This document shows, in pieces, positions 27,319-43,035 of a stretch of DNA of 64,000 nucleotides. Position 1 is the first letter of the stretch. Every line of letters starts with the position of its first letter. The DNA comes from Prauserella salsuginis (GTDB lineage Bacteria; Actinomycetota; Actinomycetes; Mycobacteriales; Pseudonocardiaceae): positions 124,001 to 188,000 of the forward strand of contig NZ_JANBBF010000011.1 of the NCBI RefSeq assembly GCF_024648885.1, in the 5' to 3' direction. The notes under the pieces are model-generated. The model was not told the DNA's origin and searched no databases. It saw only the letters and a list, made by a program, of their open reading frames with translations. The position numbers were made by a program, and so were the translations under genes.

Positions 27319-28032
27319 TCAGCGCGGGGCGCGGGCCAAGTAGACGGTGCTGCTCGCCTCGCGGCGCAGCAGAGGATTGTCGAAGGTCACGACCTCCGCG
27401 GTGACGCCGGTGAACTGCTCACCGAGCGTCGCGGTGAACTCGTCGTCGGGCCGGTCGTCGGACCAGAGTGCGAACACGCCGCCTGGCCGCAGCCGATCGC
27501 GCAGCGCAGCGAGTCCCTCGGGAAAGTAGAAACCGGTATGGCTCTCGTGCAGCACGTGCCGCGGTGAGTGGTCGATGTCGACGACGACGGCGTCGAACCG
27601 GCGGCCCGGCTCCTGCGGATCGAGCCCCTGTTCGGAGGCGACCATCGCGAAGAAGTCGCCGTGGACGAACCGGCACCGTGGATCGGCGGCCAACGTCCCG
27701 CCTGCCGGGAGCAGTGCGCGTTCGTGCCAGTCGATCACCGGCGCCAGTGCTTCGACGACCACCAGCGAGCGCACCCGATCGTCGTCCAGCACCGCAGCGG
27801 CCGTGCAGCCGAGGCCGAGCCCGCCCACGGCCACGTCGAGATCCGTTCCGTCCAACCGGGTCACGGCGCGTCGGCCCAGTTCCGTCTCCGACACGGTGAA
27901 CAGACTGGACATGAGGAACTCGTCGTTGAGCTTGATCTCGTGCACCTCGCGGTCGAGCGCGGGGTCCCGGCGCACCCGTAGCGACAGTTCGCCCATCGGC
28001 GTCTGCTGCCAGTCGAGTTCCTGAAAACGCAT
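27319..28032 (-). CDS. Spermidine-synthase-like (polyamine aminopropyltransferase fold) protein
   Basis: 237 residues. VGGLGLGCTAAAVLDDDRVRSLVVVEALAPVIDWH matches the nucleotide-binding core of spermidine-synthase-type proteins, and DAVVVDIDHSP the second motif. Such actinobacterial proteins are usually annotated as spermidine synthase, but the aminopropyltransferase activity is not certain from sequence. ATG at 28032. Convergent with the LysR gene 22 bases away. Confidence 0.8.
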   Translation of the reverse strand: MRFQELDWQQTPMGELSLRVRRDPALDREVHEIKLNDEFLMSSLFTVSETELGRRAVTRLDGTDLDVAVGGLGLGCTAAAVLDDDRVRSLVVVEALAPVIDWHERALLPAGGTLAADPRCRFVHGDFFAMVASEQGLDPQEPGRRFDAVVVDIDHSPRHVLHESHTGFYFPEGLAALRDRLRPGGVFALWSDDRPDDEFTATLGEQFTGVTAEVVTFDNPLLRREASSTVYLARAPR

Positions 28033-28099
28033 GGTCACGTGCTCACCTTCGGTTGCGGGGCGTGGGATGCGTACAGGGTCCTGCACGCACCGGCGGCGC

Positions 28100-30229
28100 C
28101 TACGCCCGGCTCAGCGCCGGCGATGTCGACTGCCGGGTGACCGTGGCGACGTCCGGATCCGCCGCGAAGGACAGGAAGTCCGACAGCCGGCGCTCGTGGG
28201 TCAGGTGGAGTTCGTGCATGGCCCTCGTGCAGGCGATGTAGAGCATGCACTTGTCCATCTCGTTGCCGTAGTTGTCCTCGTCGGCGTCCGGCACGATCAC
28301 GCGGTCGAACTCCAGGCCCTTGGAGATGTGCGCCGAGGTGATGACGATGCCGCTGCCGAACGTCGTGCTGTCGTAGTCGAGCAGAGTCGCCTCGACGCCC
28401 ACCTCGGTCACCGCGCGGTGCACGGCCTCGGCCTGGGCGATGGTCTTGCAGATGATGCCGAGTGAACGGAAGTCGCTGCGGCCGTGCCGCTCGATGATGT
28501 CGAGGATCTCCGCATGCTGGTCGTCGCAGGCGACGATCTGGGGCAGGGAGCCGCGGCGCTCGATGGGGACCAGCTTGTCGTTACGGGAGATGTTCTGGGC
28601 GAACTCGGTGATCTCCGCAGTGGAACGGTAGCTCTTGCACAGTTCGAGGCAGTCCGCGTCCGGGAAGATGCCGTGGATCGTGGCCAGTGACGACGAGCTG
28701 AACGGGTTCACCGACTGGTTGGAGTCGCCCAGGATCGTCATCTGGCACGAGAACAGCTCCCGCAGCACGGCGTACTGGACGGCCGTGTAGTCCTGCATCT
28801 CGTCGACCAGCAGATGCCGGATGTGGCCGAAGGTCTCCTGCCGGGCCGTCCTGATCATGGTGTAGATCAGCGGGAACACGTCCGAGTACTCGATCTTCTT
28901 CTTGCCCAGCGGTTTGAACATGGTGCGCCGGTTGTCGTCGGCCTCGTAGAAGGCCTTGTAGACCGCGAATGCGTCCTTGTAGGGCAGCATCGCCCGCACC
29001 TGCTTGCGGACACCGCTGGTGTCGGCCGCGCTCCACTTGCCGCCGCGGTCGCGCACCTCGTTCTTGAGCAGGTGCACGGCGGTGTCGGCCACGTGGTCGA
29101 GCCGAGTGAAGATCGGCATCGCCCGCGCGTCCTCGAAGGCGTCGGCCACCCAGTCCTCGGACAGCCGCTTGCTCTTCTGCGCGATCTCGGCCGGGGTGAA
29201 CTCGCCGGAGATGGAGGCGATCCACTCGTCGAGTCGTGCGACGAACTCGGGCGTGGCCTTGAACCGCATGCGCTCGGCCGCCGCGTCGTCGACCCGGTCG
29301 AGGAGGTTGACCACCTGCTCGCTGAACGTCTCGTACCCGGTGACCTTGTCGAGGAACCGGCTCGCGATCCGGTCGAAGTCGATCTCGGCGACCCGCTCCT
29401 CACCCAGCTCGGGCAGCACGTCGGCGATGTAGTCGCCGAAGACCTTGTTGGGGGAGAGGATCATGACGTTGTCGGAGGAGAGCGTGTCCTTGAAGCGATA
29501 CAGCAGGAACGCCACCCGGTGCAGGGCGATCGAGGTCTTCCCGGAGCCCGCGACGCCCTGCAGGATCAGCACGTCGGCGGTGTCGTTGCGGATCACCGCG
29601 TTCTGCTCGCGCTGGATGGTGGCGACGATGTTCTTCATCCGGTCGTCGGCCGACTGGCCGAGCTCACGCTGCAGGATCTCGTCGCCGATGTTGAGCGCGC
29701 TGTCGAACATGTACTCCAGGCGCCCGCCGGAGATCTTGTACTGCCGTTTGCGCGTGATGTCGCCGTGGGCGGTGCCCTTCGGCGTCTCGTAGCAGGCCCG
29801 CCCGGTCTCGTAGTCGTAGAACAGGCTGGACACGGGTGCCCGCCAGTCGTGGATCACGATCTCCTGGGTCTCCGGGTGCGAGAAGTTGTGCACCCCGATG
29901 TAGTGGGTCGCGGCATCCGACTCACCGTCGGTGTGGAAGTCGACGCGACCGAAGTACGGCGACTGCAGCAGCTTCTCGACACGCTTGTGCAGCAGCTGCG
30001 CGTGCTCGGTCATCTTGATCGACAGGTCGACCTCGCCGCGGTAGTTGGCCTTCTCGGCGAAGTCCATGTCCCGGAGGTTGTCCCACAGGTGCTTCTTGCG
30101 GGCGTCGATGTCGTCCGCGGCCTTGTCGATGTCGGCGGAGAGCCGTTCCCGCTCCTTGCCCAGCAGGTTGAGCGTCTCGGCCAGGTAGTGGTGCTCCTGC
30201 TCCTCGTCGCTCGTGCGCGCGTCGGTCAA
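28100..30229 (-). CDS. helD: HelD-like RNA polymerase recycling ATPase (UvrD/Rep helicase fold)
   Basis: 709 residues. The N-terminal coiled coil (about residues 10-75, HYLAETLNLLGKERERL to HAQLLHKRVEKLL) is the arm that enters the polymerase secondary channel. The 1A domain has Walker A GVAGSGKTSIALHR; later motifs include DEMQDYT, LGDSNQSVNPFS, SYRST and ITSAHISKGLEFDRVI. HelD frees stalled polymerase from nucleic acid, and one actinobacterial group (HelR) protects against rifamycins. A GTG at 30235 is in frame, but the AGGAGG is placed correctly for the TTG at 30229. It lies directly behind a TTACGTAA operator whose -10-like GAGAGT is at 30266-30261. Confidence 0.93.
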   Translation of the reverse strand: MTDARTSDEEQEHHYLAETLNLLGKERERLSADIDKAADDIDARKKHLWDNLRDMDFAEKANYRGEVDLSIKMTEHAQLLHKRVEKLLQSPYFGRVDFHTDGESDAATHYIGVHNFSHPETQEIVIHDWRAPVSSLFYDYETGRACYETPKGTAHGDITRKRQYKISGGRLEYMFDSALNIGDEILQRELGQSADDRMKNIVATIQREQNAVIRNDTADVLILQGVAGSGKTSIALHRVAFLLYRFKDTLSSDNVMILSPNKVFGDYIADVLPELGEERVAEIDFDRIASRFLDKVTGYETFSEQVVNLLDRVDDAAAERMRFKATPEFVARLDEWIASISGEFTPAEIAQKSKRLSEDWVADAFEDARAMPIFTRLDHVADTAVHLLKNEVRDRGGKWSAADTSGVRKQVRAMLPYKDAFAVYKAFYEADDNRRTMFKPLGKKKIEYSDVFPLIYTMIRTARQETFGHIRHLLVDEMQDYTAVQYAVLRELFSCQMTILGDSNQSVNPFSSSSLATIHGIFPDADCLELCKSYRSTAEITEFAQNISRNDKLVPIERRGSLPQIVACDDQHAEILDIIERHGRSDFRSLGIICKTIAQAEAVHRAVTEVGVEATLLDYDSTTFGSGIVITSAHISKGLEFDRVIVPDADEDNYGNEMDKCMLYIACTRAMHELHLTHERRLSDFLSFAADPDVATVTRQSTSPALSRA

Positions 30230-30263
30230 CGCCACCTCCTGGCCGAACCGTGATTCCGAAACT

Positions 30264-30283
30264 CTCCCGTTACGTAAGGGTAG
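30264..30283 (-). promoter_or_regulatory. TTACGTAA palindromic operator, site 1 (helD)
   Basis: CTCCCGTTACGTAAGGGTAG, 18 of 20 matching the shared consensus CTACCCTTACGTAAGGGTAG. On the helD strand it is followed by GAGAGT in -10 position, about 30 bases before the start codon. One of five copies in 5.3 kb. Confidence 0.8.
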
Positions 30284-30375
30284 GATACAGCTCGGGCCGG
30301 GTCGACGGCCCCGGTGCGGTCGACGCGGCGACGTGATCTCCGGTGTCGCCGCGCCGACCCGTTTCGCCCGGCCGT

Positions 30376-30403
30376 GACCGGGGCGTGCTGGGACGCCCCG
30401 GTC
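30376..30403 (-). terminator. Hairpin terminator of the sulP gene
   Basis: Perfect 11-bp arms GACCGGGGCGT and ACGCCCCGGTC with a 6-base loop, 4 bases beyond the sulP stop. Confidence 0.75.
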
Positions 30404-30406
30404 TAG

Positions 30407-31897
30407 TCAGTGCGCCCCGGTCATGTTGCCCGCCAGCGTGGTGTGGCGCTTCTCGCTGTCGTCGTTCATGCCGGTGATCGTGACGGTGGTGCCCCGTGCC
30501 TCGTACTTCGTCGTGATGGCGTCGAGCGAGGCGACGGTGGAGGCGTCCCAGACGTGTGCGTCGGAGAGGTCGATGACCACGTTCGACGGGTCGTTCGCGT
30601 AGTCGAACTGGAACACCAGGTCGTTGCTCGAGGCGAAGAACAGCTGCCCCGTCACGTGGTAGATCTTGGTCGTGCCGTCGGGGTCGAGGACGCTTTCCAC
30701 CGACACCAGGTGCGCGACCCGGCGGGCGAACAGCACCATCGCCACGAGCACCCCGACGACGACGCCGATGGCGAGGTTGTGGGTCGCGACGGTCACGGCG
30801 ACGGTGGCCACCATGACCGTGGTCTCGCTCTTCGGCATCCGTATCAGCGTCTTCGGGTGGATGCTGTGCCAGTCGAACGTGCCGACCGCCACCATGATCA
30901 TCACGCCGACCAGTGCCGCCATCGGGATGAGTCCGACGATCTGGCCGAGTGCGACCACGAGGATCAGCAGGAACACGCCCGACAGGAAGGTCGAGGCGCG
31001 GGTGCGGGCGCCCGACTTCACGTTGATCATCGTCTGGCCGATCATGGCGCAGCCGCCCATGCCGCCGAAGAAGCCGGTGACGATGTTGGCGATGCCCTGG
31101 CCCCACGACTCGCGGGTCTTGTCGGAGTGGGTGTCGGTGATGTCGTCGACGAGCTTGGCCGTCATCAGCGACTCCATCAGCCCGACGAGGGCCATGGCGA
31201 AGGCGTACGGCGCGATGATGGTGAGCGTCTCGAACGTGAACGGCACCGCGGGGATGCCGAGGATCGGCAGGCTGTCGGGCAGCTCACCCTGGTCGCCGAC
31301 CGTCGGCACGGCGATGCCGGCACTCACGGTGAACACGGTGAGCACGATGATCGCCACCAGTGGCGCGGGGACGGCCTTCGTGAGCTTGGGCAGGCCGACC
31401 ATGATCGCCAGGCCGACGGCGAGTAGCGGGTAGACCAGCCACGGCACGTCGATCAGGTAGGGCAGCTGCGCGGTGAAGATGAGGATCGCGAGCGCGTTGA
31501 CGAAGCCGACCATGACGCTGCGCGGCAGGAACCGCATCAACCGCGCCACGCCGGCCCCGGCCATCAGCACTTGCAGCAGCCCGCCCAGCACGACGGCAGC
31601 GAACAGGTACTCGACGCCGTACTCACGCGCCAGCGGGGCGAGCACGAGCGCGATCGCTCCCGTGGCGGCGGAGATCATCGCGGGCCGGCCGCCCGTGAAC
31701 GCGATCGCCACCGCCATGACGAACGACGCGAACAGGCCGACGCGGGGGTCGACCCCGGCGATGATCGAGAAGGACACGGCTTCGGGGATCAGGGCCAGGG
31801 CGACGACCAGGCCGGAGAGTGCCTCAGTGCGCAGAATGCGGGGCGACAGCCAGGCCGGGCGGCCGAGTTTCGGGCGCAGGGCAGCAGGAAGTGACAT
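30407..31897 (-). CDS. SulP-family anion transporter with STAS domain
   Basis: 496 residues. About 10-14 membrane segments with family motifs ALSGLVVALALIPEAVSFSIIAGVDPRVGL and SAATGAIALVLAPL in the first part, FFGGMGGCAMIGQTMINVKSGARTR in the middle, and a C-terminal cytoplasmic STAS domain (VVIDLSDAHVWDASTVASLDAI). SulP proteins move sulfate, bicarbonate or other anions; the substrate cannot be told. It carries operator site 2 about 83 bases upstream and shares this element with helD, merR and prfC. Confidence 0.94.
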   Translation of the reverse strand: MSLPAALRPKLGRPAWLSPRILRTEALSGLVVALALIPEAVSFSIIAGVDPRVGLFASFVMAVAIAFTGGRPAMISAATGAIALVLAPLAREYGVEYLFAAVVLGGLLQVLMAGAGVARLMRFLPRSVMVGFVNALAILIFTAQLPYLIDVPWLVYPLLAVGLAIMVGLPKLTKAVPAPLVAIIVLTVFTVSAGIAVPTVGDQGELPDSLPILGIPAVPFTFETLTIIAPYAFAMALVGLMESLMTAKLVDDITDTHSDKTRESWGQGIANIVTGFFGGMGGCAMIGQTMINVKSGARTRASTFLSGVFLLILVVALGQIVGLIPMAALVGVMIMVAVGTFDWHSIHPKTLIRMPKSETTVMVATVAVTVATHNLAIGVVVGVLVAMVLFARRVAHLVSVESVLDPDGTTKIYHVTGQLFFASSNDLVFQFDYANDPSNVVIDLSDAHVWDASTVASLDAITTKYEARGTTVTITGMNDDSEKRHTTLAGNMTGAH

Positions 31898-31979
31898 CAG
31901 CTTCTTTCGTCAGAAGGCGTGCGGAGAAAAGGAAAGAGGGGAGCCGCGTCGACGGGGCTCGTACCGAACGGAGACGACT

Positions 31980-31999
31980 CTACCGTTACGTAAGGGAAG
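31980..31999 (-). promoter_or_regulatory. TTACGTAA palindromic operator, site 2 (sulP)
   Basis: CTACCGTTACGTAAGGGAAG, 18 of 20 to the consensus. On the sulP strand it is followed directly by TAGAGT in -10 position. The rest of 31898-32149 holds no recognisable gene. Confidence 0.8.
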
Positions 32000-32149
32000 T
32001 ATCGGCCGGAATGTGATCCAGGTCCGGTGTGATCTGCGTCCGGTTTCGTGGCTGCGGCGCCCGGCGATGGTGCAGACGTGTGCGCCGACGACGTCGGAGC
32101 GGCTGCGGGCCGGACACTCCTGCGGGCGGGAAGCTCCTCCGGGGTCGGT

Positions 32150-33403
32150 TCAGTGCCGCTCCGGTGGCGCGGGTGGTGGGGTGCGGACCAGCACCGCCGC
32201 GATCGCGACAGTCACGGGCAGGGCGGTGAGCATGAGGAGGATGGCGCGGTAGGTGTCGGCGACGTCGTGGCCCATGGCCACCAGGAGCGGCCCGAACGCG
32301 GATGCGCCCACGGTGATCGAATGCACGACGCCGCGGATGGCGCCGAGGTGGCGGAGCCCGAAGCAGCGGGGGAACGCCACCGCTTCGAGGGTCCGAACAC
32401 CGTTCGCGCAGGCGCCGAGCGCGACGCCGTAGAGCACGGCTGTGAAGCCCGGGGTCACCCAACCGGCCCCTGCGGTCGCCAGTGCGAGCAGGAGCATGGT
32501 CAGCACGATCAGCACTCGGTCGGAGAAGCGGTCGGCCAGCCAGCCGAGACCGAACGCCGTGATCAGTCCCGCAATGGTTTGGGGCAGAAACGTGGCGGCC
32601 GCCTCCGTGGCGGACAGGCCGCGTTCGCCGAGCAGGGACACCTGGTGGAAGTTGAGACCGGTCGTGACGAGCGAGCAGACGGCAACCCCGGCGGCGACGG
32701 CCCAGAACATGCCGGTGCGCATGGCCTGACCCCGAGTCCAGTCCACAGTGGGCAGTGGTCCGCGGGGCCGGTCGTCCGCCTCGCCGCCGCGAGGGGGTGC
32801 GGGTGGAGTGCGGGGCAGCAGGATCAGTGCGGCGGGGATGACCAGCAGCCACACCGCGATGCCTTCGCCGATCCACACGGTGCGCCAGTCGGCGACGGCG
32901 ATCAGCCGCTCGAGCAGGACCGGCGCCAGCGAGATCCCGGCCGTGCCGATCGCCGAACTGAGTCCGATCGCGAAGCCCCGGCGCCGGTGTACGTAGATCG
33001 CGACGGTCGTCGTCGCGACGAGGTTGAGCGCGCCCTGCCCGCCGACCCGGACACCGATGAACGCCGCGGTCAACCCGGTGATTTCGCTCGCGGCGCTGCT
33101 CACGATGAGGATCAGCCCGAAACACGCGGCGATCGTCGCCATGATGCGCCGCGGTCCGTAGCGGTCGATGAGGCGGCCGAGCAGCGGCAGGACCAACGTG
33201 CCCGACAGTGATCCGATCAGATACGCGCCGGAGACCAGCGACCTCGAGATGTCCAGGTCCTCGATGATCGGGTCGATGAACACCGACATCGCCGCCGTCT
33301 GCCCGGGGGCGGTCAGCGCCAGCGCCACGGCGGCGGCCGAGACCACCCGGGTCGTGTGGGCACGGCCGGGGAGCGGTGTGGTCGTGTTGGTGGCGGTCGG
33401 CAC
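32150..33403 (-). CDS. MFS transporter (OFA/monocarboxylate-like)
   Basis: 417 residues with about 12 helices. The N-terminal half has SVFIDPIIEDLDISRSLVSGAYLIGSL and GRLIDRYGPRR, the pattern of the oxalate/formate antiporter and monocarboxylate group. Substrate unknown. GTG at 33403 with AAAGGAC upstream. It is separated from the nearest TTACGTAA site by about 300 bases, so direct membership in that regulon is uncertain. Confidence 0.88.
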   Translation of the reverse strand: MPTATNTTTPLPGRAHTTRVVSAAAVALALTAPGQTAAMSVFIDPIIEDLDISRSLVSGAYLIGSLSGTLVLPLLGRLIDRYGPRRIMATIAACFGLILIVSSAASEITGLTAAFIGVRVGGQGALNLVATTTVAIYVHRRRGFAIGLSSAIGTAGISLAPVLLERLIAVADWRTVWIGEGIAVWLLVIPAALILLPRTPPAPPRGGEADDRPRGPLPTVDWTRGQAMRTGMFWAVAAGVAVCSLVTTGLNFHQVSLLGERGLSATEAAATFLPQTIAGLITAFGLGWLADRFSDRVLIVLTMLLLALATAGAGWVTPGFTAVLYGVALGACANGVRTLEAVAFPRCFGLRHLGAIRGVVHSITVGASAFGPLLVAMGHDVADTYRAILLMLTALPVTVAIAAVLVRTPPPAPPERH

Positions 33404-33485
33404 GCGGTCGGGTCCTTTCGTCGATCAGTCGCTGTCGTCCGGTATTGCCGGGGGCCCGGTCGGTGCCGTGCTGCGTTGCCCTGCG

Positions 33486-33575
33486 CCCCGAACTGTGGCT
33501 CCCCGAACGGTGCCGCGCCCAGCGCGGCGGCACCGGGTCTCGCGGTGCCGAGCGTCGCGGCGCCGAACGGCCGAG
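33486..33575 (-). repeat. Six degenerate 15-bp tandem units (pentapeptide-like) in the MFS-merR gap
   Basis: Units of 15 bases starting at 33486, 33501, 33516, 33531, 33546 and 33561, sharing a CCCCGAACGGTGCCG-like theme. Translated on the reverse strand they give five-residue steps beginning FG, LG or PG (FGAAT, LGTAR, LGAAP). This resembles a pentapeptide-repeat fragment, but there is no convincing start or ribosome site. The rest of 33404-33710 shows nothing else. Confidence 0.4.
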
Positions 33576-33710
33576 CGGTGTGCGGTCGGCGGCGCGCCGG
33601 GAGGTTCGAGCGGGCGGCGGGAGGCTTACTGAGCGGAGGCCGCCTTCCGGGCACGCCTCGACGACGAGGCATGGAGCGCCGGAGGTGACTCGCGGGCGAC
33701 CGTGCCGGCC

Positions 33711-33730
33711 GGACACTTACGTAACGGTAA
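33711..33730 (+). promoter_or_regulatory. TTACGTAA palindromic operator, site 3 (merR)
   Basis: GGACACTTACGTAACGGTAA, 15 of 20 to the consensus, followed by TAATCT in -10 position, 80 bases before the MerR start. The weakest copy, as expected if the regulator binds its own promoter less tightly. Confidence 0.7.
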
Positions 33731-33809
33731 TCTCGGGGTGACGCGGTCGCGTACCTGGGTGCAGCCCGGGCCCGTTACGGTCGGGACCTTGTCGAGGAAG
33801 GGGTGCGGT

Positions 33810-34193
33810 GTGGCCGAACACATGCAGATCGGCGAGGTGGCCGAGCGCACGGGGCTGTCGCTGCGCACGATCCGCTACTACGAAGAGGTCGGCCTCGCCG
33901 TGCCCAGCGCTCGCAGTCAGGGCGGCTTCCGGCTGTACAGCGAGTCCGATGTCGACCGGCTGCTGCTCATCAAGCGGATGAAGCCGCTCGGATTCCAGCT
34001 CGAGGAGATGCGCGAGTTGCTCTCGCTCCTCGATGCAGCGCCCGACGATCAGGATCCGGAGGCCAGGCTGCGCGAGTTCGCCGGGGTCGCCGAACAGCGA
34101 TGCGCCGAACTGCGCTCGCGGCTGAGCAATGCCGAGGAGTTCGCCGGCATGCTCCGCGAGCGGCTGGACGAACTCGCGCGCCCGCGCTCGTAA
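33810..34193 (+). CDS. MerR-family transcriptional regulator, candidate regulator of the TTACGTAA sites
   Basis: 127 residues. The winged-helix N-terminus reads MQIGEVAERTGLSLRTIRYYEEVGL, and KRMKPLGFQLEEMRELLSLL completes the DNA-binding part. A C-terminal dimerisation helix (LREFAGVAEQRCAELRSRL) follows. Only one Cys is present, so it is unlikely to be a metal or redox sensor of the classical type, and there is no separate ligand-binding domain. GTG at 33810 with AAGGGG upstream. MerR proteins bind palindromes inside long promoter spacers, which fits the operators found at this and neighbouring promoters. Confidence 0.92.
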   Translation: MAEHMQIGEVAERTGLSLRTIRYYEEVGLAVPSARSQGGFRLYSESDVDRLLLIKRMKPLGFQLEEMRELLSLLDAAPDDQDPEARLREFAGVAEQRCAELRSRLSNAEEFAGMLRERLDELARPRS

Positions 34194-34252
34194 CGCTGTT
34201 ACGAGCGCGGCTGCCCCGTGTCGAGGCCGGTGTGGTGGTTCGTCTGCCGGGG

Positions 34253-34486
34253 TCAGTCGCCCAGCGGCACGTCGGGTAGGTGGTCCCAGAGGTCACGAAC
34301 GTGCCTGAACTGTCGTTCCGGAAGCGCGTCCAGCACCTTGAGCACGGCGTCGCGGCTGTGGTGCTGGCTTGCCGCCGTGATCAGTTGCTGCTTACTCGGC
34401 GGTGTTCCGTCGAACGCCTCTTCGACGGCGTCGATGATCTCGATGCGGGTGACGGGGTCGTGGTCCTGGTGAGCTGTCTCGGTCAC
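34253..34486 (-). CDS. DUF2795-family small protein
   Basis: 77 residues, matching the DUF2795 pattern: PPSKQQLITAASQHHSRDAVLKVLDALPERQF. Function of the family is unknown. The GTG start at 34486 coincides with the transcription start expected from the -10-like TAGAGT on this strand at 34498-34493, so it may be translated from a leaderless mRNA. Its start codon is inside the large palindrome. Confidence 0.82.
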   Translation of the reverse strand: MTETAHQDHDPVTRIEIIDAVEEAFDGTPPSKQQLITAASQHHSRDAVLKVLDALPERQFRHVRDLWDHLPDVPLGD

Positions 34487-34528
34487 ACGGCAACTCTACT
34501 CTTACGTAAGGGTAGAGTTGCCGTGTGA
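34483..34528. promoter_or_regulatory. 46-bp near-perfect palindrome containing TTACGTAA operator, site 4
   Basis: Centre CTACTCTTACGTAAGGGTAG at 34496-34515 (19 of 20 to the consensus). Flanking arms TCACACGGCAACT and AGTTGCCGTGTGA extend the symmetry to 46 bases with a single mismatched pair. TAGAGT occurs in -10 position on both strands and a GTG lies at the mirrored place on each side. The reverse-strand GTG opens the DUF2795 gene; the forward one opens only an antisense frame. Confidence 0.85.
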
Positions 34529-34563
34529 TGTGGCGTCGGTCGCAGTGGTCTGCGGCCGGATGC

Positions 34564-35436
34564 TCAGGAGGGCCGACGGGTCGCGCCCGGGCTTGCCTGT
34601 TCGCGGGCCGCGTCGGTGTGGACCTGATACAGCGGCCGGTCCGCCGGAGCGATGCGGTAGCGACCCGGCGGCAGGCTGATCCGCCGGTCGTCGACGGCGG
34701 CGGTCGTCGCGGTCTCCAGGTGCACGGACTGCGCCGCCGTGATGGCGGCGACCGTGTCGTCGTGACCGTCGTCGGTGCCGGTGAGAACACCTCCGGGGCA
34801 GGGCCGTACGAACAGCTGCGCGCAGTCGTGTTCGGCGCCGGAGGGTGCGTGGCACCGCAGTGGTCCGGGCAGATGCGCCACATCGAACACCGGGGCACGG
34901 ACGGTGCGAGTCGTGGCGTCCGCGCCCTGGATCATCACGACGGGGCTGGGGCGCAGGCAGCTGTTGACCCCGTCCGCCGGCGCGGCGAGGAAGCCGGGCA
35001 GCAGGATCGGCGCGTCCCGGGAGTGGGCGTACCGCTGTGCGGCCGGGGTCGCCGAGTGGTGGGTTGCGACGACGAGCCGCGTGTTTCGGCGGTGCGGCGA
35101 CGTCGTGCCATGTCGTGATGTCTCGGTATGCCGTGCCGCCTCGGTGTGCTGTGCCGTGACCTCTTCGACGTGCACGCCGTGTCCGCTCAGCAACGATTCG
35201 AGTGCCGCCCGTGCTGCGTCGGCTCCGGGAGTGTTGCCGTGGTGTACGGCGACGAGCTCGCCCGCGGCGAGCGTCACGGGCGGCGGGAAATCCCGTTGCG
35301 GGCCTCCGTGGGGGAGTAGGGCCGCGACGCCGGTCAGCAGTCCGTGCAGGAGTCGGTCCGATCCGGGATCGACGTGTCCTCGGTGGCTGCCAGTGCCGGC
35401 AGAGCGGTGATCAGCGGGCGTTGCCGCCGGGTTCAC
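34564..35436 (-). CDS. Hypothetical protein in the MerR-linked cluster
   Basis: About 290 residues from the GTG at 35436, which has GGAG 9 bases upstream; further upstream in-frame sequence exists, so the start is uncertain. Features seen: LAAGELVAVHHGNTPGADAARAALESLL near residue 55, a His/Thr-rich stretch (HTEAARHTETSRHG), LVVATHHSATPAAQRYAHS, and RISLPPGRYRIAPADRPLYQVH near the end. No signal peptide or membrane helix. Family not recognised. It lies between the large palindrome and site 5. Confidence 0.6.
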   Translation of the reverse strand: MNPAATPADHRSAGTGSHRGHVDPGSDRLLHGLLTGVAALLPHGGPQRDFPPPVTLAAGELVAVHHGNTPGADAARAALESLLSGHGVHVEEVTAQHTEAARHTETSRHGTTSPHRRNTRLVVATHHSATPAAQRYAHSRDAPILLPGFLAAPADGVNSCLRPSPVVMIQGADATTRTVRAPVFDVAHLPGPLRCHAPSGAEHDCAQLFVRPCPGGVLTGTDDGHDDTVAAITAAQSVHLETATTAAVDDRRISLPPGRYRIAPADRPLYQVHTDAAREQASPGATRRPS

Positions 35437-35579
35437 GATGGCGCACTCCGCTCTCGCCCACGGTCGGTTGTCGCTTCGCAGCTCCTCCGCTACGGGCGCA
35501 TGGCTGTTCCTGGAGATGGAGGTGGCGGTGGCCCGGCAAGCCGTCCGTTTCTCGGCGGGCCACTGCCACCCGTGAAAAC

Positions 35580-35599
35580 ATACCCTAACGTAAGGGTAG
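35580..35599 (+). promoter_or_regulatory. TTACGTAA-type operator, site 5 (prfC)
   Basis: ATACCCTAACGTAAGGGTAG, 18 of 20 to the consensus (TAACGTAA core). TAGAGT follows at 35597-35602, and a GTGAAA 19 bases upstream gives the long spacer typical of MerR-controlled promoters. It is 40 bases before the prfC start. Confidence 0.8.
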
Positions 35600-35638
35600 A
35601 GTTGAAGGCGACCATGTCGGACGTTGATGGAGGCGCTC

Positions 35639-37240
35639 GTGACAGCCACCGACGGCGCGCAGGATGTAACCCACGAGGCGCGCCGTAGAAGGTCCTTCGC
35701 GGTCATCAGTCACCCGGACGCCGGTAAATCGACGTTGACGGAGGCGCTCGCGCTGCACGCGCGCGTGATCTCCGAGGCGGGCGCCGTGCACGGGAAAGCC
35801 GGCCGTCGCGGTGTCGTGTCGGACTGGATGTCGATGGAGCAGGCGCGTGGTATCTCGATCACGTCGGCGGCGTTGCAGTTCGAGTATCGCGACTGTGTCA
35901 TCAACCTGCTGGACACGCCTGGTCACGCGGATTTCTCCGAGGACACCTATCGGGTGCTGTCGGCGGTCGATTCGGCGGTGATGTTGCTGGATGCGGCCAA
36001 GGGGCTCGAACCGCAGACGCTGAAGTTGTTCGACGTGTGCCGGCATCGGGGGATTCCGGTGCTGACGTTCATCAACAAGTGGGACCGGCCCGGCCGGGAG
36101 GCGCTCGAACTGTGCGACGAGCTCCTCGAGCGCATCGAACTGCAGCCCATGCCGCTGACCTGGCCCGTCGGTGTGGCAGGACAGTTCCGCGGTGTCGTCG
36201 ACCTCGACGACGGTGCGTTCGTTCGCTACGAACGCACCGCGGGCGGCGCGACGGTGGCTCCTGAGTACCGTATGAGCCCCGACGACGCCGAGGCCGAAGT
36301 GGGGGAGGACTGGACGCGGGCCGTCGAGGAGGCCGAGCTGCTGACCTCGTCCGACGGCGAGTTCGACCCCACGCGGTACGAGGACGCGTCCGCGACGCCA
36401 GTGCTGTTCGGGGCGGCGGTGCTCAACTTCGGCGTCCGCCGGCTGCTGGACCTGCTCATTGACCTTGCCCCCGCACCGGAACCGCGGAAGGACGCCGACG
36501 GCGCGCCCCGCCCGTTGGACGGCGAGTTCTCGGCGTTCGTGTTCAAGGTGCAGACCGGCATGGATCCGGCCCATCGCGACCAGGTGGCGTTCGCCCGCGT
36601 GTGCTCCGGCGTGTTCGAACGCGGCATGGTCGTCACCAACGCCACGACGAAACGTCCGTTCGCCACGAAGTACGTGCAGCAGGTGTTCGGACAGCAACGC
36701 TCCACAATGGATACGGCATATCCGGGGGACGTGATCGGCCTCGTCAACGCCACGGCGTTGCGGGTCGGCGACACCCTGTACTCCGGCAAACCCGCGGTGC
36801 GCTTCCCCGGACTGCCGCAGTTCGCGCCCGCGCATTTCGCGGTCGCCCGGCCCGCGGATCTGAGCCGATCGAAGCAGTTCCGCAAGGGTGTCGACCAGCT
36901 CGCGGCCGAGGGTGTGGTGCAGTTGCTCCGCTCCGATCTGCGCGGTGACGCCTCGCCGGTGTTCGCGGCGGTGGGGCCGATGCAGTTCGAGGTCGCGTCG
37001 CATCGACTCGAGCACGAGTTCTCCTGTCCGGTGGTGCTCGACCGGCTGCCCTACAGTGCCGTGCGCCGACTCGGTGACTCCTCGCAGCGCGGCATCGTCG
37101 ACGCGGGCAGGCGCAGCGAGGTCCTCGACCGCGGTGACGGCACCGAGCTCGCGCTGTTCGAGGACGAGATGTCGATGCGGGTCATGCTGCGCCAGCATCC
37201 CGAACTCGCGCTGGAGTCGTTGCTCGCCGAAGGGGACTGA
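35639..37240 (+). CDS. prfC: Peptide chain release factor 3
   Basis: 533 residues. The GTPase domain has SHPDAGKST (G1), GISITSA (G2), DTPGHADF (G3) and NKWD (G4). The domain II/III region (FSAFVFKVQTGMDPAHRDQVAFARVCSG, GPMQFEV) matches RF3. RF3 removes RF1 and RF2 from ribosomes after termination. The GTG at 35639 is chosen because GGAGG lies 5 bases before it; ATG at 35627 is also in frame. Operator site 5 lies directly upstream. RF3 is not universal in actinobacteria, and its placement under the same operator as helD is unusual. Confidence 0.95.
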   Translation: MTATDGAQDVTHEARRRRSFAVISHPDAGKSTLTEALALHARVISEAGAVHGKAGRRGVVSDWMSMEQARGISITSAALQFEYRDCVINLLDTPGHADFSEDTYRVLSAVDSAVMLLDAAKGLEPQTLKLFDVCRHRGIPVLTFINKWDRPGREALELCDELLERIELQPMPLTWPVGVAGQFRGVVDLDDGAFVRYERTAGGATVAPEYRMSPDDAEAEVGEDWTRAVEEAELLTSSDGEFDPTRYEDASATPVLFGAAVLNFGVRRLLDLLIDLAPAPEPRKDADGAPRPLDGEFSAFVFKVQTGMDPAHRDQVAFARVCSGVFERGMVVTNATTKRPFATKYVQQVFGQQRSTMDTAYPGDVIGLVNATALRVGDTLYSGKPAVRFPGLPQFAPAHFAVARPADLSRSKQFRKGVDQLAAEGVVQLLRSDLRGDASPVFAAVGPMQFEVASHRLEHEFSCPVVLDRLPYSAVRRLGDSSQRGIVDAGRRSEVLDRGDGTELALFEDEMSMRVMLRQHPELALESLLAEGD

Positions 37241-37286: not shown

Positions 37287-38126
37287 TCAGTTCACCGGTG
37301 AGCGGCGTTCGAGCAGCACCGTGTCGTGCCACCGGCCGTCCCGCTGGGCGATGCGTTCGCGCACGCCCACGGTGCGGTAGCCGGCCGCGTGGTGCAGGGC
37401 GACACTCGCGCGGTTCTGGGTGAAGATCGACGTCTGCAGTGTCCACAGCCCGTCGGCGTCGGCCTCGGTCACCTGCTTGTACAGCAACGCTTTTCCGATC
37501 CCGCGTCCCCGGTGATTCCCTCCGGTGTAGACGGAGGTTTCCGCCATGCCCTGGTAGCACTCCCGCGTGGACACGGGCGTCGCAGCGGTCCAGCCGACGA
37601 CCTCGCCGTCGATCTCGGCGACCCAGCGATGGCCCGGTAGCCAGGTGGCGTCGAGGTACTCCTTGCCGGGCACGGTCGTCTCGAACGTCGCGATACCGGT
37701 CGCGATGCCTTCGCCGTAGATGCGCAGAACGGCGGTCCAGTCCTCGTCGCGCAGGGCCCGGACGGTCACGTCGGAGGGCAGGTCCTCGGGGCAGCAGGGC
37801 CGTGGGCCGAGTGCGCCCATGACGGCGTCCGCGGCGTGGGGGAGTCCGGTGCAGCACGCCTCGTTGACGGTGACGACCGTGGCCGTGCCCTCCTTGTGCG
37901 TCTCGACGAATCCGACGTCGGCGAGTTTGCGCACGTGGAACGAACAGGTCGACTGACTCGTCCCGAGTAGTTCGGTGAGCGCCCCGACCGTGATGCCTTT
38001 CGGGCTGGTGGCGACCGCGTGCAGGAGGCGCACCCGTACCGGTTCGGCGAGGCATGCGAACCACTCCGCGTACGTGCTCGCATCCGAGGTGGGCAGGACC
38101 TGGGCTTGGCGCAGCGCGATCGGCAT
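37287..38126 (-). CDS. ArsR-type repressor fused to an ArsN-like GNAT N-acetyltransferase
   Basis: 279 residues. Residues about 20-115 form an ArsR/SmtB winged helix (FACLAEPVRVRLLHAVATSPKGITVGALTELL). CysCys pairs at 91-92 (ACCTGLPHA) and 111-112 (PCCPEDLP) could bind arsenite. From about 119 a GNAT domain follows (VRALRDEDWTAVLRIYGEGIATGIATFETTVP, acetyl-CoA site GNHRGRGIGKALLY), close to phosphinothricin and arsinothricin acetyltransferases (ArsN1). The enzyme would acetylate the arsenic antibiotic arsinothricin or a similar glutamate analogue, while the ArsR part senses arsenic. It is divergent from a flavoprotein gene across repeated ATCGATAC boxes. Confidence 0.9.
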   Translation of the reverse strand: MPIALRQAQVLPTSDASTYAEWFACLAEPVRVRLLHAVATSPKGITVGALTELLGTSQSTCSFHVRKLADVGFVETHKEGTATVVTVNEACCTGLPHAADAVMGALGPRPCCPEDLPSDVTVRALRDEDWTAVLRIYGEGIATGIATFETTVPGKEYLDATWLPGHRWVAEIDGEVVGWTAATPVSTRECYQGMAETSVYTGGNHRGRGIGKALLYKQVTEADADGLWTLQTSIFTQNRASVALHHAAGYRTVGVRERIAQRDGRWHDTVLLERRSPVN

Positions 38127-38137
38127 GCGGCCAGTAT

Positions 38138-38214
38138 ATCGATACCTGTCGATGGTTGCTTTCATCGACTGCCATCGATACTGTCGTCCTCAGGTCAATC
38201 GATACACGTCGATG
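38138..38214. promoter_or_regulatory. Repeated ArsR-type operators
   Basis: ATCGATACCTGTCGATG at 38138-38154 and ATCGATACACGTCGATG at 38198-38214 are near-identical imperfect dyads, with a third partial copy ATCGATACTGTCG at 38174-38186. They lie between the divergent ArsR-GNAT and flavoprotein genes. GTCGATACAGTCG recurs at 42901-42913 upstream of the other arsR gene. Confidence 0.75.
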
Positions 38215-38227
38215 AAAGGCATTGGTC

Positions 38228-39601
38228 GTGAGTGTCGAAATGAGGGATGCGGCGATGAACGAGGCACCGGTCGTCGTGGTGGGTGCGGGTCCCGTGGGCC
38301 TGGCCGCTGCTGCGGAGCTGCTGGAACGGGGTATCGAACCGCTCGTGCTCGAACGCGGCGAACACGCGGGCGCTGCCGTGGCCGAATGGGGGCACGTACG
38401 GCTGTTCTCGCGGTGGTCCGAGCTCGTGGCCCCGCCGGCACGGCGACTGCTCGCTGCCCACGGCCATCGCCTGCCGGACGACCGCACGTACCCGACCGGC
38501 GCCCAGTGGGCCGCCGAGTACCTCCGGCCGCTGGCGACGACGCTGGGGCGGCGCGTGCGCTGCGGCACCGAGGTCGTCGGTCTCGCGCGCCGCGGCCGGG
38601 ACCGCGTGGTGGACGCGGGCAGGGACACCGAACCGCTGACCGTCCACGTGCGCACCGCCGACGGTGAGGAGCGGATCACGGCGCGAGCGGTGGTCGATGC
38701 GTCCGGAACCTGGTCCACGCCGAACCCGCTCGGCGGCGACGGACTGCCCGCGGTCGGCGAGGGCGCCGCGGCCGAGCGGATCGCCCGCCATGTTCCCGAT
38801 CTGAGCGACGCGCAGCTGCGCGCGCGGTACGTGGGGCGGCACGTCGTCGTCGCGGGCAGCGGTCACTCGGCGCTGACTGCGTTGATCATGTTCGACGAAC
38901 TGGCCGCCGAACGGCCGGACACCCGGGTCACCTGGGTCCTGCGCCGCGGGCGGTTCGACGACGCGTTCGGCGGAGGTGCCGCTGACCAGTTGCCGGCGCG
39001 GGGTGCGCTGGGCGACCGCGCCCGGTCCGCTGTGGCGGCGGGGCGTATCGTCGTCGAGGCCGGATTCCGGACCGACGCCGTCGAACGCGACGTCCACGGC
39101 AAGCTACGGCTGACCACTGTGGACGGCCGCGGCATCGGTGACGTGGACGAGATCGTGGCACTGACCGGGTTCCGGCCCGACCTGTCGTGGCTGTCCGAGG
39201 TGCGGCTCGAACTGGACACGACGCTGCAGGCGCCGGTGCGGCTGGCCCCGCTGATCGACCCGAACGTGCACTCGTGCGGCACCGTCTATCCGCACGGCGC
39301 GGCCGAACTAGCCCACCCGGAACCAGACGTGTACCTGGCCGGGATGAAGAGCTATGGCCGGGCGCCGACGTTCCCCGCCATGACGGGCTACGAACAGGTC
39401 CGCAGCATCGCCGCGGAGTTGGCGGGCGACACCGAATCCGCCCGCCGCGTCGAGCTCACCCTCCCCGAGACCGGCGTCTGCGGCGGTTCGGGCTTGTTCG
39501 ACGAGCAGGCCGACGAGCCGATGGCCGAGGACGCCGGCGGGTGTTGCGGCGGAACCGTTGAGATCGCGACGCCGGCCGCGTCGACCTCGGCGCCGAGCTG
39601 A
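38228..39601 (+). CDS. FAD-dependent oxidoreductase of the arsenic island with Cys-rich tail
   Basis: About 457 residues. N-terminal FAD-binding Rossmann motif VVVVGAGPVGLAAAAELLERG, a second NAD(P)-type motif VVVAGSGHSALTAL near residue 215. It belongs to the flavin monooxygenase/thioredoxin-reductase-like group often found in ars loci. The C-terminus carries CGGSG and CCGGT clusters, possible arsenite ligands. Start GTG 38228 (AAAGG upstream) or ATG 38255. It is divergently transcribed from the ArsR-GNAT fusion over the ATCGATAC boxes. Exact reaction unknown. Confidence 0.85.
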   Translation: MSVEMRDAAMNEAPVVVVGAGPVGLAAAAELLERGIEPLVLERGEHAGAAVAEWGHVRLFSRWSELVAPPARRLLAAHGHRLPDDRTYPTGAQWAAEYLRPLATTLGRRVRCGTEVVGLARRGRDRVVDAGRDTEPLTVHVRTADGEERITARAVVDASGTWSTPNPLGGDGLPAVGEGAAAERIARHVPDLSDAQLRARYVGRHVVVAGSGHSALTALIMFDELAAERPDTRVTWVLRRGRFDDAFGGGAADQLPARGALGDRARSAVAAGRIVVEAGFRTDAVERDVHGKLRLTTVDGRGIGDVDEIVALTGFRPDLSWLSEVRLELDTTLQAPVRLAPLIDPNVHSCGTVYPHGAAELAHPEPDVYLAGMKSYGRAPTFPAMTGYEQVRSIAAELAGDTESARRVELTLPETGVCGGSGLFDEQADEPMAEDAGGCCGGTVEIATPAASTSAPS

Positions 39602-39611
39602 TTCGGACCGC

Positions 39612-39647
39612 GGTGGTCTTCCGTGCGAGATCGTCCGGAAGACCACC
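39612..39647. terminator. Bidirectional hairpin terminator
   Basis: Perfect 12-bp arms GGTGGTCTTCCG and CGGAAGACCACC around a 12-base loop, between the convergent flavoprotein and arsO genes. Confidence 0.8.
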
Positions 39648-39685
39648 AGCCGGCTGTCGCGCGGGTGACCGTCACCGGGCGCCGG

Positions 39686-40744
39686 TCACGCCACGCGCAG
39701 GCGTTCGGTGATGTCGGCGACGGCCGGCTTCGCGGTGCGGCTCGCGCCGATCAGGGTCGCCGACGCCGGGCCTGTCCAGTCGCCGTAGCCGAGCAGGTAC
39801 AGCCGCGGTTCGTCGACCGACCGGGTGCCGATCGTCTTCGGCACCCCGCCCGGCAGCGGCAGCTCCAGTGGTTCGAGGTGATCGAGCGCGGGGCGGAACC
39901 CGGTGCACCAGACGATCACGTCGCACGGCTGCTCGGTGCCGTCATCCCAGGCCACGCCGTCGCGGGTGAGCCGGTCGAACATCGGCCGGGCACGGCACAC
40001 ACCGCGGTCGCGAGCCTCGAGGACAGGCGGAACCATCACGATGTCACCGAGCGCCGAGACACTCTCGGCGTCCGTGCCGGCTCGGCGGGCGGCATCCCGA
40101 CGGGTCGCGACGTCGAACAGCACGCGGCCGTCCACGTCGTCGGGCATGAACCGCGGCTCCCTGCGCGTGACCCAGGTCGTTGTCGCGACCGTCGAGACCT
40201 CAGCCAGGATCTGCGCCGCCGAATTGCCGCCTCCCACGACCACGACGCGGCGGCCGCGGAACCGCTCCGGTGAGCGGTAGTCGACGGTGTGCAGCTGCTC
40301 ACCCACGAACTCGGCGGCACCCGGGTAGTGGGGCAGTATCGGCGAGTCCCAGGTTCCGGTCGCACTGATGACGAATGAGGCGTGCCAGATGCCGTGGTCG
40401 GTGTCGACGGCCAGCCGCGCGCCCGCGTCATGGACGCCGCGCACCCGCACGGGGCGCCGAACGGGCAGGTCGTAGCGCCGCTCGTAGTCCTGCAGGTATC
40501 CGGCGACGTGAGTTGCGGTGGGGAAGGGCTCGCCTTCCTGGCGGGGCATCCACCAGCCGGGCAACGGGTTGTGCTCGGCAGGGGAGAACAGCCGCAGCGA
40601 GTCCCAGCCGCGGCGCCACGCGCCGCCGGGCTCGTCCCGCGCGTCGAGGACGACGAACCGCAGCCCGGCCCTGCGCAAGAAATACCCTGCCGCGAGCCCG
40701 GCCTGACCGCCGCCGACCACGACCACGTCCACGGTCCCGGTCAC
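39686..40744 (-). CDS. arsO: ArsO-like flavin-dependent monooxygenase
   Basis: 352 residues. FAD motif VVVVGGGQAGLAAGYFLRRAGL at the N-terminus, a central VVVVGGGNSAAQILAEV for NAD(P)H, WCTGFRP before a C-terminal YLLGYGDWTG segment. This length and motif set matches ArsO proteins encoded in ars operons. Its substrate is not firmly established. It is last in the arsR-acr3-arsC-arsO transcript, 112 bases after arsC. Confidence 0.88.
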   Translation of the reverse strand: MTGTVDVVVVGGGQAGLAAGYFLRRAGLRFVVLDARDEPGGAWRRGWDSLRLFSPAEHNPLPGWWMPRQEGEPFPTATHVAGYLQDYERRYDLPVRRPVRVRGVHDAGARLAVDTDHGIWHASFVISATGTWDSPILPHYPGAAEFVGEQLHTVDYRSPERFRGRRVVVVGGGNSAAQILAEVSTVATTTWVTRREPRFMPDDVDGRVLFDVATRRDAARRAGTDAESVSALGDIVMVPPVLEARDRGVCRARPMFDRLTRDGVAWDDGTEQPCDVIVWCTGFRPALDHLEPLELPLPGGVPKTIGTRSVDEPRLYLLGYGDWTGPASATLIGASRTAKPAVADITERLRVA

Positions 40745-40856
40745 GCCTCACCCTCCCCGGTCGCCGTCCCTGTTCGCCGCGCAGCCCGGTTGCCCCGTCG
40801 CTTGGACGATGGGCCGCTCCGCCGTCGTGCTGTCGGCCTCCCGACGGTGCGGGGCG

Positions 40857-41264
40857 TCAAGCCGTCGGCACGAGCTCGGCCAGTAGCGCCCGCACCCGCC
40901 GGTCGATGTCGTCGCGAATCGGCCGCACGTCGTCGACTCCTCTGCCCGCGGGGTCGTCCAGCTGCCAGTCCAGGTAGCGCTTACCGGGGAACACCGGGCA
41001 GGCATCGCCGCAGCCCATCGTGATCACCACGTCGGCCGCCTGCACCGCCTCGGTGGTCAACGGTTTGGGGAACTCCTTGCTCAGATCCAGCCCGAGCTCG
41101 CCCATCACCTCGCGCACGGCCGGGTTGATCGACTCGGCGGGTGCCGATCCCGCGGAACGGACGGTCACCCGGCCCGCGGCGTGGTGGTCGAGCAGCGCGG
41201 CGGCCATCTGCGAACGGCCCGCGTTGTGCACGCAGACGAACAGCACCTCGGGGATGTCGGACAC
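40857..41264 (-). CDS. arsC: Arsenate reductase (low-molecular-weight phosphatase type)
   Basis: 135 residues. The catalytic P-loop is CVHNAGRSQ (Cys11), and GCGDACPVFPG holds Cys85 and Cys89, which relay oxidation in thiol-coupled ArsC enzymes. It reduces arsenate to arsenite for Acr3 to export. GTG at 41264 with GGAAGGAG upstream. 26 bases after acr3 in the same operon. Confidence 0.95.
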   Translation of the reverse strand: MSDIPEVLFVCVHNAGRSQMAAALLDHHAAGRVTVRSAGSAPAESINPAVREVMGELGLDLSKEFPKPLTTEAVQAADVVITMGCGDACPVFPGKRYLDWQLDDPAGRGVDDVRPIRDDIDRRVRALLAELVPTA

Positions 41265-41290
41265 GGGGTTCTCCTTCCGGTTGCGGCGGA

Positions 41291-42406: not shown

Positions 42407-42882
42407 GCGGTGACCTCCGTCTCGGCCGACGTGTCGGCGGGGTTTCCAGCGGGCCGGAGCACGGCCGACAGCCGGGCGAGGACGTCCGGGGCCGCGCGGT
42501 AGTACACCCAGGTCGCGCGCCGTTCGCTCGTCACGAGCCCGGCCTCGCGCAGAACCTTGAGATGGTGCGAGATCGTCGGCCCGGTGAGGTCGAACGTCCC
42601 GGTCAGATCGCACACGCACGCCTCGCCGCCCGCGTGCGAGGCGATGAGCGAGAGCAGTCGGAGGCGCACCGGGTCGGCGAGGGCCTTGAAAGCCTGTGCC
42701 AGTTCGGTGGCCTGGTCCTGTGACAACGGGTCGCCGGCCAGCGACGTCTCGCAGGGCTCGGACGTCGCCGTCGCGGACATCGTGGGCGTCACGGACATTG
42801 CCGGAGTCGGGGACTGCGGCGGCGTCTCGGGATGCGGTCGCGCCCCGGCGTTCCGGTCGGACACCGGCGGCTGTTTCGACAT
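42403..42882 (-). CDS. arsR: ArsR-family arsenic repressor
   Basis: 159 residues. The winged helix reads FKALADPVRLRLLSLIASHAGGEACVCDLTGTFDLTGPTISHHLKVLREAGLV; the ACVCDL pair is the classical As(III) site of ArsR. A Ser/Thr/Pro-rich N-terminal extension of about 55 residues is unusual, and starts at internal Met codons are possible. GTCGATACAGTCG at 42901 upstream resembles the boxes of the divergent ArsR-GNAT locus, so the two repressors may cross-regulate. Confidence 0.92.
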   Translation of the reverse strand: MSKQPPVSDRNAGARPHPETPPQSPTPAMSVTPTMSATATSEPCETSLAGDPLSQDQATELAQAFKALADPVRLRLLSLIASHAGGEACVCDLTGTFDLTGPTISHHLKVLREAGLVTSERRATWVYYRAAPDVLARLSAVLRPAGNPADTSAETEVTA

Positions 42883-43035
42883 TCGTCTATCTTGATGTCC
42901 GTCGATACAGTCGTCAACCGGCCGTGAGCGGCGCCTCATCCGGGGTTCGTGTCGTTCCCACCCGTCGCCCGGCCACCGCCCCCAAGGACGCGCTACCGCG
43001 CGACTGTGCTCTCGGGGGTCGGCATGTGCAGGTTC

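Follow-up and report, generated by a model that had tools for sequence, protein, structure and literature searches.

The window analysed here is a 64,000-nucleotide stretch of the Prauserella salsuginis genome (contig NZ_JANBBF010000011.1, positions 124,001 to 188,000), and it contains a cluster of genes encoding the RNA polymerase recycling factor HelD, a SulP anion transporter, a small MerR-family regulator, a DUF2795 protein and peptide chain release factor 3 (RF3, encoded by prfC), each preceded by a copy of one palindrome (Table 1). A sequence-only reading of the window had proposed that these palindromes join the five genes into one MerR regulon; all five sites lie where it had placed them, and its gene names agree with the protein-family matches. 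The SulP protein remains under the cut-off of the sulfate-permease model TIGR00815, and the genome encodes two further HelD-like matches, with 31% and 37% identity to the helD product of the cluster. The spermidine-synthase-like protein encoded next to helD has no family match of its own, while its relative in locus L061, 64% identical, matches PF01564. The MFS gene between sulP and merR has no good site of its own, the nearest being the weak merR site.

Table 1 Features of the window and positions of a second palindrome in other loci (PWM, score in the position weight matrix)
Feature	Position	Strand	Remarks
Spermidine-synthase-like gene	27319..28041	-	next gene after helD, same strand
helD	28100..30235	-	RNA polymerase recycling factor, HelD_BACSU type; NF041464 523.8 bits, cut-off 419
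helD operator, 26 bp	30261..30286		GAGAGT, -10-like, minus strand, 30261-30266; 2 mismatches; PWM 35.2
sulP	30407..31897	-	SulP anion transporter with STAS domain; PF00916 2.4e-47 (over cut-off), PF01740
sulP 5'-leader stem-loop	31941..31960	-	directly past predicted transcription start
sulP operator, 26 bp	31977..32002		predicted -10 TAGAGT, minus strand, 31977-31982; 2 mismatches; PWM 34.8
MFS gene	32150-33403	-	between sulP and merR
merR operator, weak	33708..33733		TAATCT, -10-like, 33728-33733; PWM 13.2
merR	33822..34193	+	123-residue MerR-family regulator without metal-binding cysteine set
DUF2795 gene	34253..34486	-	PF11387 1.4e-9; GTG start 6 nt past -10 hexamer
DUF2795 operator, 26 bp	34493..34518		predicted -10 TAGAGT, minus strand, 34493-34498; PWM 43.6
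prfC operator, 26 bp	35577..35602		predicted -10 TAGAGT, 35597-35602; 2 mismatches; PWM 39.2
prfC	35639..37240	+	peptide chain release factor 3; NF001964 584.1 bits, cut-off 473; start codon uncertain
ars gene group	37287..42939	mixed	no operator inside (no PWM match >=8)
ArsR-ArsN1-like fusion	37287-38165	-	
Flavoprotein	38222-39601	+	
ArsO	39686-40744	-	539.8 bits, over cut-off
ArsC-like reductase	40857-41270	-	below equivalog cut-off
Acr3	41291-42475	-	441 bits, over cut-off
ArsR-like regulator	42403-42939	-	start uncertain
CTCACGTAACGTGAG palindrome	L053:5404, L056:8409, L062:8407, L070:8413, L072:8416, L074:8413		
CTCACGTAACGTGAG one-base variants	L063:8409, L071:8417		

A palindromic operator confined to one cluster

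Four of the sites (30264, 31980, 34496 and 35580) deviate from the 20-mer by one or two mismatches, and no such match occurred in 100 dinucleotide shuffles. The merR site (33711) is the weakest by far, with five mismatches and a score of 13.2 against 34.8-43.6 elsewhere in a symmetrised position weight matrix (PWM); its 20-mer recurs identically upstream of merR in locus L038. The earlier claim that the motif is unique in the 64 kb stands in that no further exact copy is found and is qualified in that TTACGTAA occurs exactly four times, the prfC site reading TAACGTAA. When the whole genome (G000, 5,641,633 bases) was searched with the inner 16-mer at up to three mismatches, seven sites were returned, namely the five known ones (one or two mismatches) and two at three mismatches, with three for the reversed pattern used as control. 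The operator is confined to the cluster, and the rest of the 5.64 Mb genome holds no credible site.

Across the loci described below, 122 gene-oriented sites give the consensus AnnCTACCCTnACGTnAGGGTAGnnT, a 26-bp palindrome whose central ACGT is conserved at 0.98-1.00. The PWM, which was trained on sites from part of the same loci that were later scanned, returned 230 matches scoring at least 12 from 1.99 Mb of locus sequence, none with the matrix reversed, and 4, 0 and 0 with three column shuffles. TAGAGT stands at the gene-side end of the operator, which overlaps a -10-like TAnnnT hexamer. In the window this hexamer, anticipated by the sequence-only reading as TAGAGT or a variant, reads TAGAGT at sulP, DUF2795 and prfC, GAGAGT at helD and TAATCT at merR. 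The DUF2795 operator is also the core of a 44-bp palindrome (34484-34527) with one mismatched pair, which reaches into the start codon. An Rfam search of positions 24,000-46,000 found no family at gathering score, and a known RNA at 34481-34533 was rejected, the sub-threshold miRNA match there (33 against 93.5 bits) being the palindrome resembling a miRNA hairpin.

By sequence, the regulator belongs to the MerR family (PF13411, 5e-20; PF00376, 5e-14; PF09278, 1.1e-9), and its 123 residues contain no Pfam domain beyond these, the C-terminal ligand-binding domain of the drug-sensing subfamily being absent. An alignment of 76 sequences, from the window and 75 of 80 loci, shows almost no variation in the DNA-binding half, and a single cysteine column is conserved in 73 of them, with no cysteine in L079, L099 and L100. 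Metal-sensing MerR proteins carry conserved cysteines where the dimerisation helix begins and in a C-terminal loop. With only one cysteine, lost in 3 of 76 sequences, the present protein lacks the cysteine set of the metal sensors; it falls outside that subfamily and reaches no equivalog cut-off (CueR model, 81.8 against 147.4 bits). The best sequence matches in the PDB are 4ua1 ('Regulatory protein'), then CueR, TipA and CadR, with MtaN and BmrR also among them.

Co-inheritance with MerR and make-up of the regulon

In a sample of 60 related genomes, a close MerR orthologue was defined by E < 1e-29 (next best genome, 2e-16), and the operator including the -10 hexamer was searched at up to three mismatches. 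It is present in 15 of the 17 genomes with the orthologue and in none of the 43 without it, the reversed pattern occurring in two genomes, once each (Fisher p = 2.6e-12 by genome and 4.2e-9 by genus, values that treat genomes as independent, which is not fully true). The two MerR genomes that missed the cut-off, G020 and G055, hold weaker matches in their fetched MerR regions (L232, 29.9; L233, 14.9). A phylum-wide sample of 296 genomes, which has G000, G042, G049 and G055 in common with the first, was searched with a MerR cut-off of E <= 1e-25 and up to two operator mismatches; here the operator is found in 14 of 21 genomes with MerR and in 0 of 275 without (p = 3.5e-19, under the same assumption). 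The link of the motif to this MerR thus gains comparative support, as every operator-bearing genome holds a close orthologue (15 of 15 and 14 of 14), and a motif scattered without regard to MerR, which the sequence-only reading had named as the outcome that would speak against it, is contradicted by the genome-wide confinement and by the one-sided co-occurrence. A palindromic operator at promoters that is inherited together with its predicted regulator is what would be expected of the MerR family.

Among 61 genomes of a presumed Streptomyces sample, some of them fragmented, 24 carry the operator, and in the loci read its usual place is the gap between divergently oriented merR and sulP genes; in one of the 24 (G409) the match is seen on a single strand, ahead of an unrelated gene (L178), and could be a chance hit. 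From at least 313 confirmed MerR relatives the best 80 were taken as named loci, mainly from Pseudonocardiaceae and Streptomyces with a few from Actinomadura, Micromonospora, Modestobacter, Demequina and others. A site of score 12 or more is present in 77 of these 80 loci, all fetched by MerR similarity, and in many of them the palindrome lies near merR, sulP, prfC or helD. The operator-regulator pair is real and non-random, and it occurs in several classes of Actinomycetota.

The members of the regulon were counted in 121 sequences (the window and 120 loci), a gene being scored when a site of score 12 or more lies in the roughly 300 bp upstream of it. The units are sequences, not independent species, as some species of L038-L117 recur among L200-L239 (L224 with L038, L221 with L041 and L200 with L087 are examples). 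Downstream genes were called by a GC-position script, which gave a gene for 317 of 454 site-directions and none on either side at 12 of 227 sites, and some of its short genes are wrong-strand shadows. Counted as sequences with an upstream site among those containing the family, the figures are 93 of 98 for sulP, 70 of 99 for merR (family 0, which includes some other MerR proteins), 29 of 45 for prfC, 9 of 10 for helD (seven sites once two same-species repeats are removed) and 7 of 9 for DUF2795, followed by 8 of 28 for spermidine-synthase-like, 6 of 17 for MFS transporter, 5 of 6 for zinc-finger-like and 4 of 5 for ADP-ribosylglycohydrolase genes. The conserved core is merR with sulP, and helD, prfC, DUF2795, ADP-ribosylglycohydrolase and others are lineage-specific additions. 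The proposal of a regulon linking five promoters under one operator is supported for the window and is too narrow as a description of the system.

RNase J (12 of 17) is the least certain member and was downgraded, since 11 of its 12 sites score 12.8-18.2, eight belong to another palindrome class (see below), three Streptomyces sites score 14.5-18.2, and the sole strong one (L098, 29.4) is also the site of a divergent prfC. The RNase J gene of the G380 island, whose site is weak (16.5), has a second copy elsewhere that is 71% identical and without operator. Phosphofructokinase, phosphoglucose isomerase, nicotinate phosphoribosyltransferase and an ArsP-like permease have a site in single or few cases.

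The prfC gene of the cluster is a second copy, the other lying on another contig (G000:C6:30470-32035) and being 87% identical, with no operator around it (best PWM score -2.6). Likewise, G004 has two copies and G057 three, and the other prfC copies examined (six regions) have no operator. In G011, G015, G016, G020 and G030 the only RF3 gene (E 1e-100) adjoins MerR or a site, whereas it lies elsewhere in G002, G003, G005, G006, G009, G026 and G050, all of which have MerR and operator; RF3 is also present in nine genomes without the MerR.

Several smaller observations concern individual members. A stem-loop in the sulP leader (GAGCC...GGCTC) is kept in the window, L038, L041, L055, L058, L066, L081 and L091; of its seven pairs in these eight sequences two are changed on both sides, one of which is also broken in two sequences, and the covariation term is only -0.19. 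A pyrimidine-rich stretch follows it in the window, and the structure could be an attenuator. Zinc-finger-like proteins of about 260 residues with an operator are encoded in Streptomyces (L087:11341-12129, L089, L108, L109 and L200; DUF6300 match below cut-off). In a distant genome of the phylum, one site is flanked by two divergent genes, one of the ADP-ribosylglycohydrolase family and one for nicotinate phosphoribosyltransferase (L208:7063-8297, and L160 at the same place in G345), both of which belong to ADP-ribose/NAD metabolism. The occurrence of SulP, phosphofructokinase, nicotinate phosphoribosyltransferase and a nitroreductase near sites suggested a DosR-like dormancy regulon; this was rejected, as the nitroreductase gene only diverges from the prfC site of L108 and the majority of these genes are single cases. 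Anti-phage defence was also dismissed, the PADLOC matches looking like generic helicase and helix-turn-helix matches.

Operator position and mode of regulation

The distance between the dyad centre of the operator and the start of the -10 hexamer is 7.5 bp, and no clear -35 element is found at 17, 18 or 19 bp from it, be it in the 122 oriented sites or in sets of 104 one-sided and 98 two-sided ones. The family-typical arrangement, with the operator between -35 and -10 elements at 19-20 bp spacing, is therefore not seen, though it is typical of the family rather than needed for membership. The sequence-only reading had seen a classical MerR promoter at prfC, where GTGAAA precedes TAGAGT by a 19-base spacer; that gap is real, whereas the classical promoter built on it was rejected, as the other sites do not share such a -35 and the operator overlaps the -10. 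Support for TAGAGT as a -10 comes from DUF2795, where in four sequences (L062, L072, L203 and the window) the hexamer and the start codon are 6-7 nt apart, a spacing like that of leaderless transcripts, and the gene is probably leaderless on this ground.

The dyad of the EcmrR promoter oligonucleotide given in PMC8113463 lies 12 bp from the -10 by our own count, and the 7.5 bp observed here differs from this by nearly half a helical turn. As classical MerR proteins are described in PMC9909328 as working from the DNA face opposite RNA polymerase, we infer from the half-turn offset that protein and polymerase would compete, and that the outcome would be repression. For a MerR-family palindrome of Brucella at a 17-bp promoter, repression-only regulation is offered as one possibility in PMC1526738.

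We lean, with some caution, towards a mechanism built from these comparisons. The small MerR would bind AnnCTACCCTnACGTnAGGGTAGnnT at its own promoter and at those of sulP, helD, DUF2795 and prfC, acting mainly as a repressor that lies across the -10 element. Some stress signal would then release it, and the cell would make more SulP together with HelD and extra RF3, which would clear stalled transcription and translation.

Several observations weigh against this mechanism. MerR proteins usually activate. The site before merR itself is weak in the window (PWM 13.2), seven of the 21 MerR genomes of the phylum-wide sample have no site at up to two mismatches, and the MerR loci L043, L047 and L054 have none of score 12 or more. 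In G002, G003, G005 and G006, which are further species of the window's genus and have the MerR, the sole RF3 gene lies outside the cluster. The leaderless argument draws on four sequences only, one with a weak site (L203, 19.3), and the DUF2795 start is 46-283 nt away in L087, L114 and L200. Finally, the symmetry of the operator in part dictates the -10 reading, because the far-side ACTCTA mirrors TAGAGT; the far-side A is still conserved at sites facing one gene (0.71), so these bases may be protein contacts and not promoter.

The strongest alternative keeps the same regulon and makes MerR a ligand-dependent activator, bending DNA at promoters that have a -10 and no good -35. This is the classical behaviour of the family as presented in PMC9909328 and PMC8113463, the lack of a clear -35 consensus would fit promoters that need help, and the GTGAAA 19 bp from TAGAGT at prfC is -35-like. 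However, the 7.5 bp between dyad centre and -10, against 12 in the oligonucleotide of PMC8113463, points to placement on the same face as the polymerase, and a -35 at 19-20 bp is not conserved over the 122 oriented sites. Activation is a serious contender, if on present evidence an unlikely one.

A broader form of the repressor mechanism may also be put forward, though only tentatively and with clear doubt. Here a MerR without effector domain would repress, in several actinobacterial classes and from an operator about half a helical turn off the classical position, SulP together with a stress kit of rescue and spare housekeeping factors, namely HelD and a second RF3, joined in some genomes by a second copy of RNase J, phosphofructokinase, phosphoglucose isomerase or nicotinate phosphoribosyltransferase. 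If true, such a kit would be a means of replacing or supplementing core machinery under oxyanion poisoning or a comparable stress. This form is rated slightly lower than at first because RNase J proved a weak member.

Compared with known systems, the regulon resembles those of CueR, ZntR and HmrR in its small two-domain MerR, its promoter palindrome (the ZntR operator is given as a 22-bp even palindrome in PMC1526738) and the often divergent pair of regulator and transporter; CueR is also the best NCBIfam model, below cut-off, and the best PDB match after 4ua1. Unlike them, the protein lacks the metal-binding cysteine set, the promoters show no 19-20 bp spacer between -35 and -10, and the targets are an anion transporter with RNA and translation factors, not a metal pump. 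TipA, Mta and BmrR share the DNA-binding fold, with TipA, MtaN and BmrR among the PDB matches, whereas the present MerR ends past the dimerisation region and has no C-terminal drug-binding domain. The HelR rifamycin-associated element and the WhiB7 regulons are said to bring factors for RNA polymerase rescue or antibiotic tolerance under the control of a stress regulator, and their operators and regulators differ from those here; this helD is of the B. subtilis type, in contrast to HelR, whose models it matches at 134.8 and 129.1 bits against cut-offs of 1100 and 750. Term searches of main texts found no SulP, MerR or release factor in the survey PMC6205960 and no MerR or release factor in PMC6514093, and the titles and abstract beginnings of open-access papers among the matches listed for MerR, HelD, SulP, the motif, arsenic, RF3 and RNase J describe neither operator nor regulon.

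The locus is a predicted MerR regulon that stands out by the non-classical position of its operator and by its unusual targets, in which RNA polymerase rescue and translation termination stand beside SulP under an apparent single switch. A SulP transporter that occurs in many Actinomycetota thereby gains an operator and a regulator that can be tested, and with a clean operator-regulator pair in several classes a reporter could serve to search for the signal directly. Repression at a site that overlaps the -10, if true, would depart from the distortion-activation model of most studied MerR promoters.

Arsenic genes and possible other readers of the palindrome

An ars gene group begins 46 bases past prfC in the window, and the island may be read as an arsenic-stress module with the MerR regulon as one arm of arsenic resistance. 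The recurrence of such genes speaks for this view: acr3 lies about 9 kb or less from a site in six of the 15 relatives that bear the operator (G015 and five from the genus of the window), acr3 or arsC is found in 10 of the 80 named loci (four Prauserella, four Streptomyces, the latter including L094 and L113 with acr3 nearby), an acr3 match in two pieces stands beside a MerR homologue in G057:C47, and one site (L212) has an ArsP-like permease gene diverging from it. Yet acr3 is elsewhere or on another contig in the other nine relatives, and none of the 24 operator-bearing genomes of the Streptomyces sample, some fragmented, has it within 10 kb on the same contig, which weakens arsenic as a general signal. 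Moreover, the ars genes of the window are without the operator that they would share in an arsenic-resistance regulon, and the only cysteine of MerR is missing in 3 of 76 orthologues. The idea of a cysteine-poor replacement RF3 under arsenite also failed, six operator-linked copies having 3-6 cysteines and six outside copies 3-5. We consider the arsenic module improbable; arsenic genes are a recurrent neighbour of the regulon, not a rule.

The group itself resembles the arsRBOCT-type arsenic operon of Streptomyces, named in the reference list of PMC5312570, in its ArsR, Acr3, ArsO and ArsC types; the MerR operator is absent from its genes. The fusion protein of the group joins an ArsR-type helix-turn-helix to an ArsN1-like acetyltransferase of the arsinothricin-resistance type (131.2 against 170 bits, below the curated cut-off).

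Still less probable is that another regulator reads the palindrome and MerR is merely a co-inherited target. Binding of the palindrome by MerR is, after all, deduced from sequence comparison, Streptomyces islands hold several MerR paralogues, a wider-spaced palindrome class occurs at RNase J starts in Saccharothrix and Lentzea, and TetR-like and ArsR-like families (assigned by eye) recur in 12 and 8 scanned sequences. However, merR has an upstream site in 70 of 99 sequences and the TetR-like and ArsR-like families have none, the DNA-binding half of MerR is almost invariant in the 76 aligned sequences, and the co-occurrence of operator and MerR is one-sided and clean. A functionless palindrome arising by chance or from a repeat is already refuted by the absence of matches in 100 shuffles, the confinement to one cluster and the conservation in other classes of the phylum.

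In Saccharothrix and Lentzea, the wider-spaced palindrome, CTCACGTAACGTGAG, sits at the start codon of RNase J genes and is built from half-sites like those of the main operator. It is possibly the operator of a different MerR paralogue.

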